From a virus: a stretch of DNA of 40,527 nt. The position numbers and the translations under genes were made by a program. Below are positions 4,250 to 15,814 of this stretch, piece after piece (the first letter of the stretch is position 1; each line of letters opens with the position of its first letter). The stretch lies in IMG/VR virus record IMGVR_UViG_3300045007_000065, positions 1 through 40,527 of that record; one strand, written 5' to 3'. The notes beneath the pieces were generated by a model, which worked only from the letters and a program-made list of their open reading frames with translations, made no database searches and was not told the DNA's origin.

Positions 4250-4818
4250 TATTTCACCATTCCCAAAACAGACTTTACATCCTCTATTTGCAAGATATAT
4301 TCATTTTCAATGGCGGCGGACTCGGCGGACTCGGCGGCAGACCTGGCGGCAGACTCGGCAGACCTGGCGGCAGACCTGGCGGCATACCATGCGGCAGACT
4401 CGGCGGCAGACTCGGCGGCAGACTCGGCAGACCTGGCGGCAGACCAGGCGGCAGACCTAGCAGACCAGGCGGCAGACCTGGCGGCAGACCATGCGGCAGA
4501 CCTGGCGGCAGACTCGGATTTATCAGAACCATTAAGCCAATTATATGCCCATTTCTCTACTTCGGATATGCCGCAATTAAGTGCGCTGCGCTTGACTGAT
4601 CTATCGACAATCGCACCAAGAACTCGTGCAAGCTGATATTTGGTTAATGCCCCCTTTCTCCACACCACCCACATTTTATCAGCGGCAGGTATAGGCATTT
4701 CAAAAATATCAAGAAGGGATGCTTTTTCTCTTCCAGCCCACAACTGAACAAGATACTCAATCGTGTAAGTATTGCACGGCTTTTCTTCCATCAATTGCTT
4801 CACTGTCCAAGTCTTCAT
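4249..4818 (-). CDS. Alanine-rich tetrad-repeat protein, first gene of leftward operon
   Basis: 189 residues. Residues 1-100 form an ordinary globular-looking domain (Trp-rich, VVWRKGALTKYQLARVLG). Residues 103-169 are an almost pure series of SAAx tetrads, with x being Arg, Trp, Glu or Tyr, broken by SAx triads. The last 20 residues are again normal sequence. The repeat is probably one long amphipathic helix. I recall similar 'AARSAAWSAA' proteins in other phages, without a firm function. GGGGAGGTCAA precedes the ATG, and the gene is first after the leftward promoter. The other frames over the repeat are also open, but only because of its composition. Confidence 0.75.
   Translation of the reverse strand: MKTWTVKQLMEEKPCNTYTIEYLVQLWAGREKASLLDIFEMPIPAADKMWVVWRKGALTKYQLARVLGAIVDRSVKRSALNCGISEVEKWAYNWLNGSDKSESAARSAAWSAARSAAWSARSAAWSAARSAESAAESAAESAAWYAARSAARSAESAARSAAESAESAAIENEYILQIEDVKSVLGMVK
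4312..4512 (-). repeat. 12-bp/9-bp coding microsatellite (SAAx tetrads)
   Basis: A tandem array of GCGGCAGAC-type units on the plus strand, mostly 12 bp with some 9-bp units. All lengths keep the minus-strand frame, and variation is concentrated in the fourth codon (Arg, Trp, Glu, Tyr). It should be prone to slippage and to length differences between related phages. Confidence 0.9.
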
Positions 4819-8113: not shown

Positions 8114-8133
8114 AACGGCGCTCAAAATAGTTT

Positions 8134-8205
8134 GTATAGCTATACCAACTGTCAACTATCAGTTTACAGTTGGATTATTGGTTAACTTAGTTAATATTTT
8201 ATTAA
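8134..8205. promoter_or_regulatory. Cluster of four palindromes in AT-rich DNA
   Basis: GTATAGCTATAC (8134-8145) is a perfect 12-bp palindrome. 8145-8173 is a 29-bp dyad with 13-base arms matching at 12 of 13 around ATC. TTAACttaGTTAA (8182-8194) and TTAATAtttTATTAA (8191-8205) follow. The cluster lies just upstream of a promoter and the primase operon. Operator array or replication origin are the two obvious readings. Confidence 0.6.
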
Positions 8206-8217
8206 TACAAAATATTC

Positions 8218-8246
8218 TTGACATGCAACAAATGGTATGATTTATA
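8218..8246 (+). promoter_or_regulatory. Promoter for leader RNA and replication genes
   Basis: TTGACA (8218-8223), 17-base spacer, TTTATA (8241-8246). The predicted start near 8253 falls right at the base of the first long stem of the structured leader. The palindrome cluster lies directly upstream. Confidence 0.6.
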
Positions 8247-8252
8247 TCTGAT

Positions 8253-8356
8253 ATGGCTAAGGTTTATGATAAACAAATCCTTTTCGAGCGCAGTCTCAAT
8301 CTTTTCCTGTGTCGTAGACCTTAGCCGATTTACGTAACGGGTTGGGGCTGCGCTCC
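8253..8356 (+). ncRNA. Structured leader RNA: two interleaved long stems
   Basis: Stem A pairs 8255-8270 with 8311-8326 (16 pairs: 13 Watson-Crick, 3 G-U). Stem B pairs 8286-8300 with 8341-8355 (15 pairs: 12 Watson-Crick, 3 G-U). The 5' arm of B lies in the loop of A and the 3' arm of A lies in the loop of B, so they form either a pseudoknot (connecting segments of 15, 10 and 14 bases) or two alternative folds. The G-U pairs occur only in the plus-strand RNA; on the minus strand they would be A-C mismatches. The AGGAG of the next gene (8360-8364) starts five bases after stem B. There is no U-tract after B, so it is not a simple terminator. I recognise no known RNA family. Confidence 0.7.
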
Positions 8357-8372
8357 AATAGGAGTTGGTTCT

Positions 8373-8513
8373 ATGAATAAAGCCATCCTTGAAGAGTTGA
8401 TTGATATAATTACGGAAAAGGAATATACTCAAGAAAGATCTCTTATTGTAGATGCTGCAATGATTATTAAAGAACTTATAAACTCAAAGAGTATGGAGAG
8501 GCCCTATGAATAA
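8373..8513 (+). CDS. Small helical protein before the primase (46 aa)
   Basis: 46 residues starting MNKAILEELIDIITEKEYTQ, acidic and probably all-helical. AGGAG lies eight bases before the ATG, and the whole 5' leader is the structured RNA. It overlaps the primase-helicase start by eight bases. It is the immediate target of any control by the leader. Function unknown. Confidence 0.6.
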   Translation: MNKAILEELIDIITEKEYTQERSLIVDAAMIIKELINSKSMERPYE

Positions 8514-10626
8514 TTTAGAGCAAGCCATACTGTATGCAGAAAAAATGAAATGGCGCATCTTGCCGTGCAATCTTGAAAAAGTAGCACTATTAAAAGACTG
8601 GACAAACAAGGCAACCTGTCAAGCAGATATTATAACTCAGTGGTGGAAATCTAACCCTAACTGTTCCATTGGCGTTGCATGTGGCCCTGAGTCTGGCATA
8701 TGGGTTTTAGATATTGACCTCCCAGACGGCCCGAATACAATAAAAGATTGGGAGAATAATGGGCTTATTCTCCCTCAAACGCTAACCCAGGAAACAGGCA
8801 GTGGTGGTACCCAATATTTTTTCAAATGGAATGGCAAGGAAGTACGCAATTCTTCAAAAAAACTAGGACCAGGAATTGATGTCCGTGGAGATGGTGGTTA
8901 TGTAATAGTTCCACCGTCAGGCCATCTATCAGGCAATAATTATAAATGGATCAATAAAACACAACCTGTAAGCGCACCAGATTGGTTATATGAACTAATA
9001 CAGAAAACTAAAGAACCGGCATCTAACCAATGTACATCGTCAAGTTATGGAGAGTCTGCACTAACTCAGGAAATCATGAAACTATCACGAGCTACAGAGG
9101 GGCAGCGCAATGAAACTCTAAATTCTGCATCATATTCCCTCGGACAGTTAATAGCAGGAGGAGAGCTTGAACGTGAAAGGGTCGAGTCAATGTTGCTAGG
9201 TGTGGCTTTAGGAGTTGGCCTGAAAAACAAAGAAGCAAACGCTACAATTAATAGCGGAATAATAGCCGGTATGAAAAACCCAAGGCAAAATCCTCATGCT
9301 AATAATTCACTATCATACGACATAGGCGACATAGGCGACACATACGACAATGGCGACAACCGGGACAATAGGCGACAGTATACGACACTAGGCGACACTA
9401 GGCGACAGCAGGCGACAACAGGCGACAACGAAAATCAGGATAATTCAGAGAATAATCTGTTTGCTCTCATAGGCGAATACATAACAAATTCAACAGGTTC
9501 TTTCACTGACAGCCAAATAGACAACGAGTTCTGTCTTAGGACCAGGGCAGAGAAGAAACACAGATCTAAATGTCTCTCTATATATAAAAATAAAAAACTA
9601 ATAAAAAAAGATAAAACTATAAAAGGTAAATGGTACGTTATATCTTCTCAAGTGCAGTGGGTCGATCTCGATCAAGCAGATGAATCACCTTTTCAGATAA
9701 TCCTCCCATTTGGTTTGCATGAAAAAATATCCATACCTCCCCGGTCGATTATTGTTGTTGCCGGATCAACCAACTCTGGCAAAACGGCTTTCATCTTAAA
9801 CACTCTCAGGCTAAACATAAATCAAGAATACGATAAAATATATTGCATGTCTGAAATGGGAAGCAGTGAATACAAGGACCGAGTGAAATCCTTTGGAGAT
9901 AGTTTAAATACATGGAAAGCCAATATAAAGGCTGCTGAACAGTCATATGACTTCGATGGTCTAATACAGCACCATAACCCTAATGGTTTGACTTGTATTG
10001 ATTACTTGGAAGAAATTGATGGAGAATATTTTAAAATACCTTCCAGTATAAGAGATATTTATGATTCTCTTGAAACTGGTGTGGCCCTTATTGCTATTCA
10101 GAAAAAAACTGAAGCTATTGTGGGTCGTGGAGGAGAAGCAACAAAAGATAAGGCAAGGCTCTATATGACTATAGATTTTCTTTGTTCTTTGGATCATGGC
10201 ATTGCTTGCGCTCTTAGATTAACCAAGGTGAAAAAGTCTCTCCATGAAAATATGCAGGACAAGGAGTTACATTTTAAAATCGAGCGTGGATGCGATTTAT
10301 CTATTCTGATGGATTGGACTTTTTCATCAAATGTAAACAGATCACAATGTATTTTAAAATATTCCGGGTTAAAGCACCAGAATATAACTCCGTACGATCC
10401 ATGTAGTTTTATGACAGTAGAGCAGATTGAAGTAACCCTATCAGAAAAAGATTTCAGAGAATGGGAAAACTCTTATAAGGGTTATGATCTAAGAAAGGAA
10501 TTGGCTAGAGTCTCAGGTATGTCATACACAGCGGCATGGTTAAATAAAAAGAACTGGTATTGGCAACTAGGAAGACATTTGGATAAAAAGTACAAAGAAC
10601 ATAAAGAACTTAATAATCGGAGGTAA
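8506..10626 (+). CDS. Prim-pol / RecA-fold helicase replication protein
   Basis: 706 residues. Residues 1-160 match the bifunctional primase-polymerase domain: GVACGPESGIWVLDIDL with catalytic D69 and D71, TGSGGTQYFF (97-106) and RGDGGYVIVPPSGH (127-140). In the GGT-Q segment a glutamine stands where many relatives have histidine. Residues about 271-308 are a low-complexity linker encoded by the iteron-like DNA array. The C-terminal part has GSTNSGKT (420-427), a Walker A of the DnaB/RepA-type RecA fold, so the protein probably primes and unwinds at the phage origin. The C-terminal 100 residues may bind DNA. GAGAGGCCCT lies upstream of the ATG. Confidence 0.85.
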   Translation: MNNLEQAILYAEKMKWRILPCNLEKVALLKDWTNKATCQADIITQWWKSNPNCSIGVACGPESGIWVLDIDLPDGPNTIKDWENNGLILPQTLTQETGSGGTQYFFKWNGKEVRNSSKKLGPGIDVRGDGGYVIVPPSGHLSGNNYKWINKTQPVSAPDWLYELIQKTKEPASNQCTSSSYGESALTQEIMKLSRATEGQRNETLNSASYSLGQLIAGGELERERVESMLLGVALGVGLKNKEANATINSGIIAGMKNPRQNPHANNSLSYDIGDIGDTYDNGDNRDNRRQYTTLGDTRRQQATTGDNENQDNSENNLFALIGEYITNSTGSFTDSQIDNEFCLRTRAEKKHRSKCLSIYKNKKLIKKDKTIKGKWYVISSQVQWVDLDQADESPFQIILPFGLHEKISIPPRSIIVVAGSTNSGKTAFILNTLRLNINQEYDKIYCMSEMGSSEYKDRVKSFGDSLNTWKANIKAAEQSYDFDGLIQHHNPNGLTCIDYLEEIDGEYFKIPSSIRDIYDSLETGVALIAIQKKTEAIVGRGGEATKDKARLYMTIDFLCSLDHGIACALRLTKVKKSLHENMQDKELHFKIERGCDLSILMDWTFSSNVNRSQCILKYSGLKHQNITPYDPCSFMTVEQIEVTLSEKDFREWENSYKGYDLRKELARVSGMSYTAAWLNKKNWYWQLGRHLDKKYKEHKELNNRR
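9325..9427 (+). repeat. Iteron-like array of GGCGACA, 9-10 bp period
   Basis: Exact GGCGACA starts at 9325, 9334, 9352, 9371, 9391, 9401, 9411 and 9421. TACGACA variants occur at 9343 and 9381, and CGGGACA at 9361. From 9371 on, the spacing is exactly 10 bp. Ten is not a multiple of three, so the repeat passes through all reading frames (GD, then RRQ, then TTG), which indicates a repeat conserved as DNA rather than as protein. It is followed by AT-rich sequence. Confidence 0.8.
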
Positions 10627-14509: not shown

Positions 14510-14748
14510 TAAACTGTAAAGCCCACCGACATATTGTAAACATAACTAGCTGATATTATTACAGACAGGGGTGTCGGACTAACTGTCGGCAATTTTTACT
14601 ATCAGAAACATATAAGTATATCGCTAGGTTACAAGGGCATAATCTGACACCTATCGAAAAACGAAGGAAATGGCTGATAATTATATGTTGTCATAGGGTA
14701 GATTGATCCTAATTGCCAGCCATTGGTTATAATCGCCCATAACTGCCA

Positions 14749-14778: not shown

Positions 14779-14802
14779 TTCCCCAACGCGTGCGCGTCTA
14801 AA

Positions 14803-14865
14803 TATCACCGCTAGGTGATACCCTGGAGACATACCTCAGTATGTCGGTTATGCCCATGAGGGCAT
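14803..14865 (+). other. Three consecutive tetraloop hairpins
   Basis: TATCACC-gcta-GGTGATA (14803-14820), GACATAC-ctca-GTATGTC (14828-14845) and ATGCCC-atga-GGGCAT (14850-14865). All are perfect, with four-base loops and 4-7 base gaps. None has a T-tract. They could be antitermination or RNA-stability elements, or DNA recognition sites for packaging. Confidence 0.7.
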
Positions 14866-14873
14866 CAAGGCAT

Positions 14874-14893
14874 CTAGACTCCTAGACTCCTAG
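14874..14893. repeat. Short direct repeat CTAGACTC
   Basis: CTAGACTC occurs twice without a gap (14874-14881 and 14882-14889), followed by CTAG. It lies between the tetraloop hairpins and the GC-rich hairpin at 14919-14939. Confidence 0.6.
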
Positions 14894-14918
14894 TATCTCC
14901 CTATATAACCACGTCAAA

Positions 14919-14939
14919 GCCCGCCCATACAAGGCGGGC
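14919..14939. other. GC-rich hairpin before the terminase genes
   Basis: GCCCGCC pairs with GGCGGGC around a seven-base loop. Read leftward it is followed by TTTGACG, so it could be a weak leftward terminator. Read rightward there is no T-tract. Confidence 0.4.
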
Positions 14940-15018
14940 GATAGATATAGCCAAAACTTTGACTCCACCACTTGACAATTATATACCACCTACGCTATTA
15001 ACTAACCATGGAGACGAT

Positions 15019-15528
15019 ATGCTAGATGATTGCGATCGTATGGTTAATCCTGATAACGCCACCCTTAGTCATAGCGAAATCTCAAAACCTAAATACATAG
15101 ATCATTCTTTGACGGTAAAAATGAGAGCTGGAGGCATGACATGTCAAGAAATCGCCGATGTTCAAGGATGTTCAAAGACTAATATCGTTAATGTGTTGCA
15201 AAGATACGATGCCAAAAAGGGAGAAGTCGAGGATTTTAAACGACATAGAGCTGATATTCTGGCGGCTATGCAGCAGAGGATTTTACGAAACGTTACCGCT
15301 GAAGACATCGCGAAAGCTCCTCTAAGCGTCAAATTATTGTCAATGGGTATAGCCTACGACAAGGAAAGGCTGGAGCGTGGCAAAGCAACAAATATCAGTG
15401 TTTCCGCTAAGTTAGAGATGACCGAGAAAGCCTACGAGAAGATGATCCGAAGGAAATATGGAGAGATTATTGACGCTCCAGGAGAAGAAATAAGCGAGGA
15501 CGTAGCTGATATGGCACCTGCTGAATAG
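15019..15528 (+). CDS. Probable terminase small subunit (HTH)
   Basis: 169 residues from MLDDCDRMV. An upstream TTG at 14959 extends the frame by 20 residues but has no ribosome site; GGAGACGAT before 15019 favours the ATG. LTVKMRAGGMTCQEIADVQG and the segment after it form a helix-turn-helix typical of small terminases that bind the packaging site. A helical centre and an acidic C-terminus follow. Its place just before the large terminase gene supports the call, but similarity is limited to the HTH and overall layout. Confidence 0.65.
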   Translation: MLDDCDRMVNPDNATLSHSEISKPKYIDHSLTVKMRAGGMTCQEIADVQGCSKTNIVNVLQRYDAKKGEVEDFKRHRADILAAMQQRILRNVTAEDIAKAPLSVKLLSMGIAYDKERLERGKATNISVSAKLEMTEKAYEKMIRRKYGEIIDAPGEEISEDVADMAPAE

Positions 15529-15814
15529 GCCCATAGATGCAACCATCGTGCCAAAGAAAAAACATCGATCCTGAACCACAAGACAACGTCCAGCACAAGC
15601 CCTATGTTCTTGATATCATTTGGTATGCCGATAATATACATTATGACAAGTTGTGTAAGATATATCCTACATATGTAATATCAAGTAGTTGCGCATGGTC
15701 CCCGTTGCCTGTAGGGTCCGAGGGTAGGGGGGGGGAGTCCGGGGGTAGGCGATTGTAGTGAAGAAGATATGCATATACCCCTCTTTCCAGCGAATATAAA
15801 CAAAAAGGAGGTAA
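15529..15814. other. Gap in the packaging region, no convincing gene
   Basis: 286 bases between the small terminase gene and the next start. A 73-codon frame at 15537 ends in Gly/Arg/Ser low complexity through the G-rich tract and has no ribosome site, so I do not call it. The notable content is the G-rich tract at 15714-15745. Confidence 0.6.
15714..15745 (+). other. G-quadruplex-forming tract
   Basis: Four G-runs (GGG, GGG, GGGGGGGGG, GGGGG) separated by TCCGA, TA and AGTCC satisfy the usual quadruplex pattern on the plus strand. It is by far the most G-rich stretch of an AT-biased genome, between the two terminase genes. Confidence 0.7.

Follow-up and report, generated by a model that had tools for sequence, protein, structure and literature searches.

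Leader RNAs with alternative folds

The ColIb-P9 repZ leader works through a short loop-to-flank pseudoknot together with a leader peptide and an antisense RNA, and translation of RepY opens the RepZ start. The autogenous T4 gene 32 pseudoknot, a short one at some distance from the start site, serves to nucleate gp32 binding; the MS2 maturation gene and hok have metastable leaders. For the plasmid replication genes repZ and repA, pseudoknot switches are documented (cited in PMC10724649); for aapA3, metastable folds that delay translation of the toxin have been described (PMC6733600). The timP mRNA, which belongs to the type I toxin-antitoxin system timPR of enterobacteria, adopts mutually exclusive folds, and a pseudoknot-bearing form has been proposed to be the active one (PMC11228461). 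A literature search for the HK022 put RNA returned no papers. Descriptions of translational switches that set the timing of phage DNA replication are scarce outside a handful of model phages and plasmids.

The leader analyzed here comes from an uncultured bacterial virus (record IMGVR_UViG_3300045007_000065); the whole stretch of 40,527 nt is referred to as the window. By analogy, the leader may work like those of timP or ColIb-P9 repZ, a kinship in kind only, and no homology to the timP, repZ, repA or aapA3 leaders was found. It resembles timP in being a 5′ leader with mutually exclusive predicted folds and with a Shine-Dalgarno (SD) sequence buried in a stable hairpin (PMC11228461). Unlike timP, which is a toxin gene with an antisense RNA (TimR), the phage leader has long stems and no antisense RNA was found for it; the first gene of the phage unit is also unlike a membrane toxin. 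With repZ it would share a replication gene placed under translational control through alternative folds and through overlap with a small upstream ORF. However, it has long interleaved stems instead of a short loop-to-flank pseudoknot, and a conserved leader peptide with a ribosome site, as in repZ, is absent: the phage leader has only a leaderless frame, which is shifted in L001, a relative of the phage (IMG/VR 3300045008_000076). T4 gene 32 is likewise a phage replication gene with a leader structure able to control translation, but in the phage leader it is the start site itself that is paired. As in aapA3, the MS2 maturation gene and hok, folding order during transcription would decide ribosome entry, although the genes are unrelated and the folding order of the phage leader is computed only.

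Interleaved stems upstream of the primase gene

Protein family searches of the genome identified a P22-like portal (phrog_156), a major head protein, an Erf/YqaJ recombination pair, a helicase-methylase fusion, a PrimPol primase and an SSB-like gene, the last of which sits in the same operon as the leader. The gene for the PrimPol-type primase (8506–10626, plus strand; PF09250, E 2e-37), which has a C-terminal ATPase-like part, is preceded by a 46-residue ORF (ORF46; 8373–8513, plus strand). ORF46 is the first gene of the unit and overlaps the primase start by 8 nt; it has no Pfam, PHROG or phage match and may not be a real gene. The sequences CTATGAATAA and AAGCCAT(C/A)CT are common to the starts of ORF46 and the primase gene (8371–8389 and 8504–8531), and weak pairing of the leader's 5′ arm with the primase start is possible as well. 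Elsewhere in the genome, 5000–5275 holds a short frame that resembles a Cro-type HTH protein (by eye only) and, between this frame and the 5344 operon, a strong terminator-like hairpin; tandem repeats at 4311–4517 encode an Ala/Ser/Arg-rich stretch of a 189-residue ORF on the minus strand.

A likely promoter, recognized by consensus match only, lies at 8218–8248 on the plus strand, and its sequence is identical in L001. The original prediction placed the start of transcription at stem A. This is plausible, as the TTGACA at 8218–8223 is perfect, but the −10 candidates (TTTATA at 8241 and TATATC at 8243) are weak, matching 3–4 of 6 positions at spacings of 17–19. Judged from sequence, the transcript likely starts near 8253.

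Downstream of this site, two helices are interleaved in the order A-B-A′-B′, which is the stem order of an H-type pseudoknot; when re-derived, the coordinates and pair counts given for them earlier proved correct. The 5′ arm of stem A (8255–8270, plus strand) pairs with A′ (8311–8326) through 16 unbroken pairs, three of them G-U, with no A-C mismatch. The 5′ arm of stem B (8286–8300) pairs with B′ (8341–8355) through a core of 14 pairs, again with no A-C mismatch and with two G-U pairs; the third G-U, U8300-G8341, adds a 15th pair. When the whole window was shuffled 81 times with dinucleotide counts preserved, interleaved pairs scored no higher than 27, versus 38 observed, and single helices no higher than 39, versus 45 for B.

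Folding energy was also scanned along the genome in 1244 windows of 130 nt (both strands, coarse step). The largest excess in the genome was at 8256–8385 on the plus strand (−18.6 kcal/mol; the next was −13.9), versus −12.2 kcal/mol for the minus strand at the same site. Folding z-scores are −5.9 (plus) and −3.5 (minus). Together, the restriction of the core wobbles to G-U and the better folding of the plus strand point most naturally to a plus-strand RNA, as had been proposed from the G-U pairs. The second-largest folding excess of the genome (z −5.2) belongs to an intergenic run of about five hairpins at 14797–14945, upstream of an ORF at 14959, for which the Rfam match is weak and below threshold (CRISPR-DR28, E 0.13).

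The strand preference also bears on the possibility that the leader is a DNA-level element near the primase gene, such as a replication origin, a single-strand initiation hairpin or a recombination site. We regard this as very unlikely: an AT-rich (76%) palindromic stretch lies just upstream and the primase gene adjoins, but the wobbles are exclusively G-U, the plus strand folds far better than the minus strand, and the GC skew shows no turn at 8.2 kb. For the last reason, too, the proposal that the structure acts as a replication primer or entry structure found no support. The AT-rich stretch itself (8129–8173), located 5′ of the leader and upstream of its promoter, contains two adjacent palindromes, AGTTTGTATAG/CTATACCAACT and CCAACTGTCAACT/AGTTTACAGTTGG, that look like operator or initiator sites.

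A search of the whole window against Rfam 15 gave no match above the gathering cut-off (the best weak match, RAGATH-6, had 21.3 bits against a cut-off of 170), in agreement with the earlier statement that no named RNA family fits. Some other cis-acting RNA role, be it antitermination at the start of the early transcript, transcript protection or a riboswitch of a new type, would suit a leader that is predicted to open a transcription unit; given that Rfam offers no match and that pairing of the start codon would be left unexplained, we consider any such role highly improbable.

Predicted competing folds over the ORF46 start site

The core of stem B stands as originally predicted, but its outward continuation to 8274/8367 had been overlooked. 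In the extended helix, 8274–8302 lies opposite 8339–8367 and spans the SD of ORF46 (AGGAG, 8360–8364, plus strand), which begins five bases past the end of B′ at 8355, just where the ribosome site had been placed. The 5′ side of this extension opposite the SD (8274–8284) falls within loop 1 of the interleaved arrangement (8271–8285), which carries three differences in L001. Farther out, the 5′ arm of stem A together with 8253–8254 (8253–8270) pairs with the start-codon region (8371–8386, plus strand; ATG at 8373). As a whole, 8253–8302 and 8339–8386 form a single long imperfect hairpin with a computed energy of −54.4 kcal/mol, in which 8313–8318, part of A′, pairs with 8329–8334 instead of with A. 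Strand A therefore has two alternative partners, A′ or the start-codon region. In this most stable computed fold both the SD and the start codon are paired, as expected of a bistable leader that sequesters its SD.

When start regions were shuffled and paired with the fixed leader, 11 of 2000 matched the true pairing, and among 1022 ATG contexts of the same genome five, the true site included, paired with the leader as well. In a weaker test, in which the isolated 5′ arm was matched as a duplex to the ATG contexts, the ORF46 start ranked only 10th of 1022. It is thus the in-register continuation of helix B that carries the case, and not the 5′ arm alone.

For the growing transcript, the best nested fold was computed to be A:A′ from ~8324 to 8348, next the B hairpin and lastly the long hairpin. 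The A:A′ fold without pseudoknot has an energy of −42.3 kcal/mol and the B hairpin alone, at 8360, one of −37.9 kcal/mol. A pseudoknot of A and B comes to roughly −45 to −50 kcal/mol, estimated as a rough sum of stacking energies plus an assumed penalty of 9.6–14; this is better than the B hairpin alone as long as the start codon has yet to be transcribed, and is surpassed by the long hairpin from then on. The structure had been described as either a pseudoknot or two exclusive folds. That alternative was rightly drawn, and because the long hairpin beats both A:A′ and the estimated pseudoknot, the energies favor exclusive folds at equilibrium.

A stable H-type pseudoknot could still be the working form, with A:A′ and B:B′ coexisting and being read by the ribosome or by a protein (an autogenous repressor, for example the primase or the phage SSB, in the manner of T4 gene 32). 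Its core stems are both unbroken and include wobble pairs, its loops of ~15, 10 and 14 nt could span the stems, and, up to synthesis of the start codon, its estimated energy is better than that of the B hairpin alone. In addition, the loops vary and the stems are constant in L001, and an SSB-like gene is part of the operon. However, once the start region is present the long hairpin is ~5–9 kcal/mol more stable, stems that exceed one helical turn would require threading, and a pure pseudoknot gives no role to the extension of B over the SD or to the pairing of A with the start codon. We therefore treat a pseudoknot as working form as a tentative alternative, possible but doubtful.

The folds differ in how they expose the start site. 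Its opening costs 11.6 kcal/mol in the long hairpin versus 6.7 kcal/mol with A:A′ (8253–8324 masked), and the AUG bases are unpaired at 0–0.04 in the former versus 0.53–0.97 in the latter. L001 follows the same pattern, with opening costs of 11.0 versus 6.6 kcal/mol. The A:A′ state frees the AUG but is only partly open, because the SD is predicted to remain partly to mostly paired in a small local hairpin. On these modeled energies, the burial of the start site fits the earlier proposal that the structure could control early-gene translation.

Masking of 8253–8324 would equally describe a leader-peptide mechanism (translational attenuation), in which a ribosome on a leaderless frame prevents the 5′ arms from entering the long hairpin and frees the start of ORF46; the fall in opening cost on masking is what such a mechanism calls for. 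The candidate frame is speculative: 23 codons (MAKVYDK..., 8253–8324, plus strand) running from an ATG at the predicted +1 to a stop inside A′. In both strains the TAG lies within A′, at 8322 in the window and at ~8315 in L001. However, in L001 a one-base insertion puts the sequence beyond codon 7 out of frame, and the peptide is therefore not conserved; moreover, the frame has no SD, and a frame of 20 codons is expected by chance. We consider translational attenuation unlikely.

Our preferred reading, to which we assign a probability of about 0.5, is that the replication transcript would begin with a structured leader that serves as a two-state translational switch for ORF46 and, via the overlap, for the primase. 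In the nascent RNA, A:A′ would form first. When B′ emerges it could pair with B, and either a large pseudoknot that keeps A:A′ would result or A:A′ would be displaced. Transcription of the SD and start codon would then allow the long hairpin to form, with B extended over the SD and A exchanging A′ for the start codon. In the A:A′ states the AUG would be open and opening of the start site ~5 kcal/mol cheaper, and the long hairpin would shut the start site. We infer that the outcome would be a brief translation window or a control point for ORF46 and, by overlap, also for the primase. Candidate triggers are transcription speed, a ribosome on the leader, a phage protein or a ligand.

If the switch is real, it could time the onset of phage DNA replication. 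More speculatively, and with low confidence, the leader may represent a hitherto undescribed class of phage riboregulator, in which an internal competitor and the start codon share a single 5′ strand, translation of the replication operon is timed by the order of folding during transcription, and fast-changing loops act as sensors. The leader is compact and has clear competing helices, and nested-fold annotation by itself would overlook the competing stem A.

The leader in a related phage

By DNA similarity, no relative of the leader was found in phages and plasmids. Viral contigs were scanned with the primase, a primase alignment, the portal, the promoter and downstream flanks and degenerate stem patterns; L001 was the only carrier recovered (L009 and L011 are the same contig), and among same-population contigs the leader was not seen outside L001. 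No comparable interleaved stems were present in the distant primase relatives L002, L004 and L006–L008 or in loci of 19 genomes from the same phylum as L002.

Over an aligned length of 11.4 kb, 19 differences separate L001 from the window. Seven of these lie inside the leader (8271–8356), all in loops and none in stems; at the background rate, such clustering has a P of about 4e-11, and for the six leader substitutions all to miss the stems P is about 0.004. With respect to the long hairpin, one pair is gained (8277 A>C) and one lost (8279 C>A) in the helix opposite the SD. The positions changed by 8332 A>G and 8339 G>A stay paired, now as U-G and U-A, respectively, and 8356 remains a mismatch. 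The L001 hairpin has an energy of −53.7 kcal/mol, nearly that of the window. The differences are thus compatible with a constraint on both folds. L001, the sole homologue found, has no compensatory pair change and its stem pairs are unchanged; because it is a single other sequence with identical stems, a constraint on sequence is here indistinguishable from a constraint on pairing.

A strong local excess of differences, confined to loops, between otherwise near-identical phages would be in line with a target for an antisense or small RNA that controls replication or superinfection immunity, the variable loops being the specificity determinants. However, no convincing minus-strand promoter was found downstream of the leader, and the other clusters of differences point to mosaic patches and not to selection on loops, which makes an antisense target quite unlikely in our judgment.

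For similar reasons, we give less weight to the idea that the leader is a hot spot, whether hypermutable or selected. Further clusters of L001 differences occur at 9513–9567, 14711–14715 and 15501–15576, and each of the four differences in 9513–9567 affects the third position of a codon in the primase frame. This distribution suggests mosaic ancestry or mixed-strain assembly as the simplest cause of the clustered differences.
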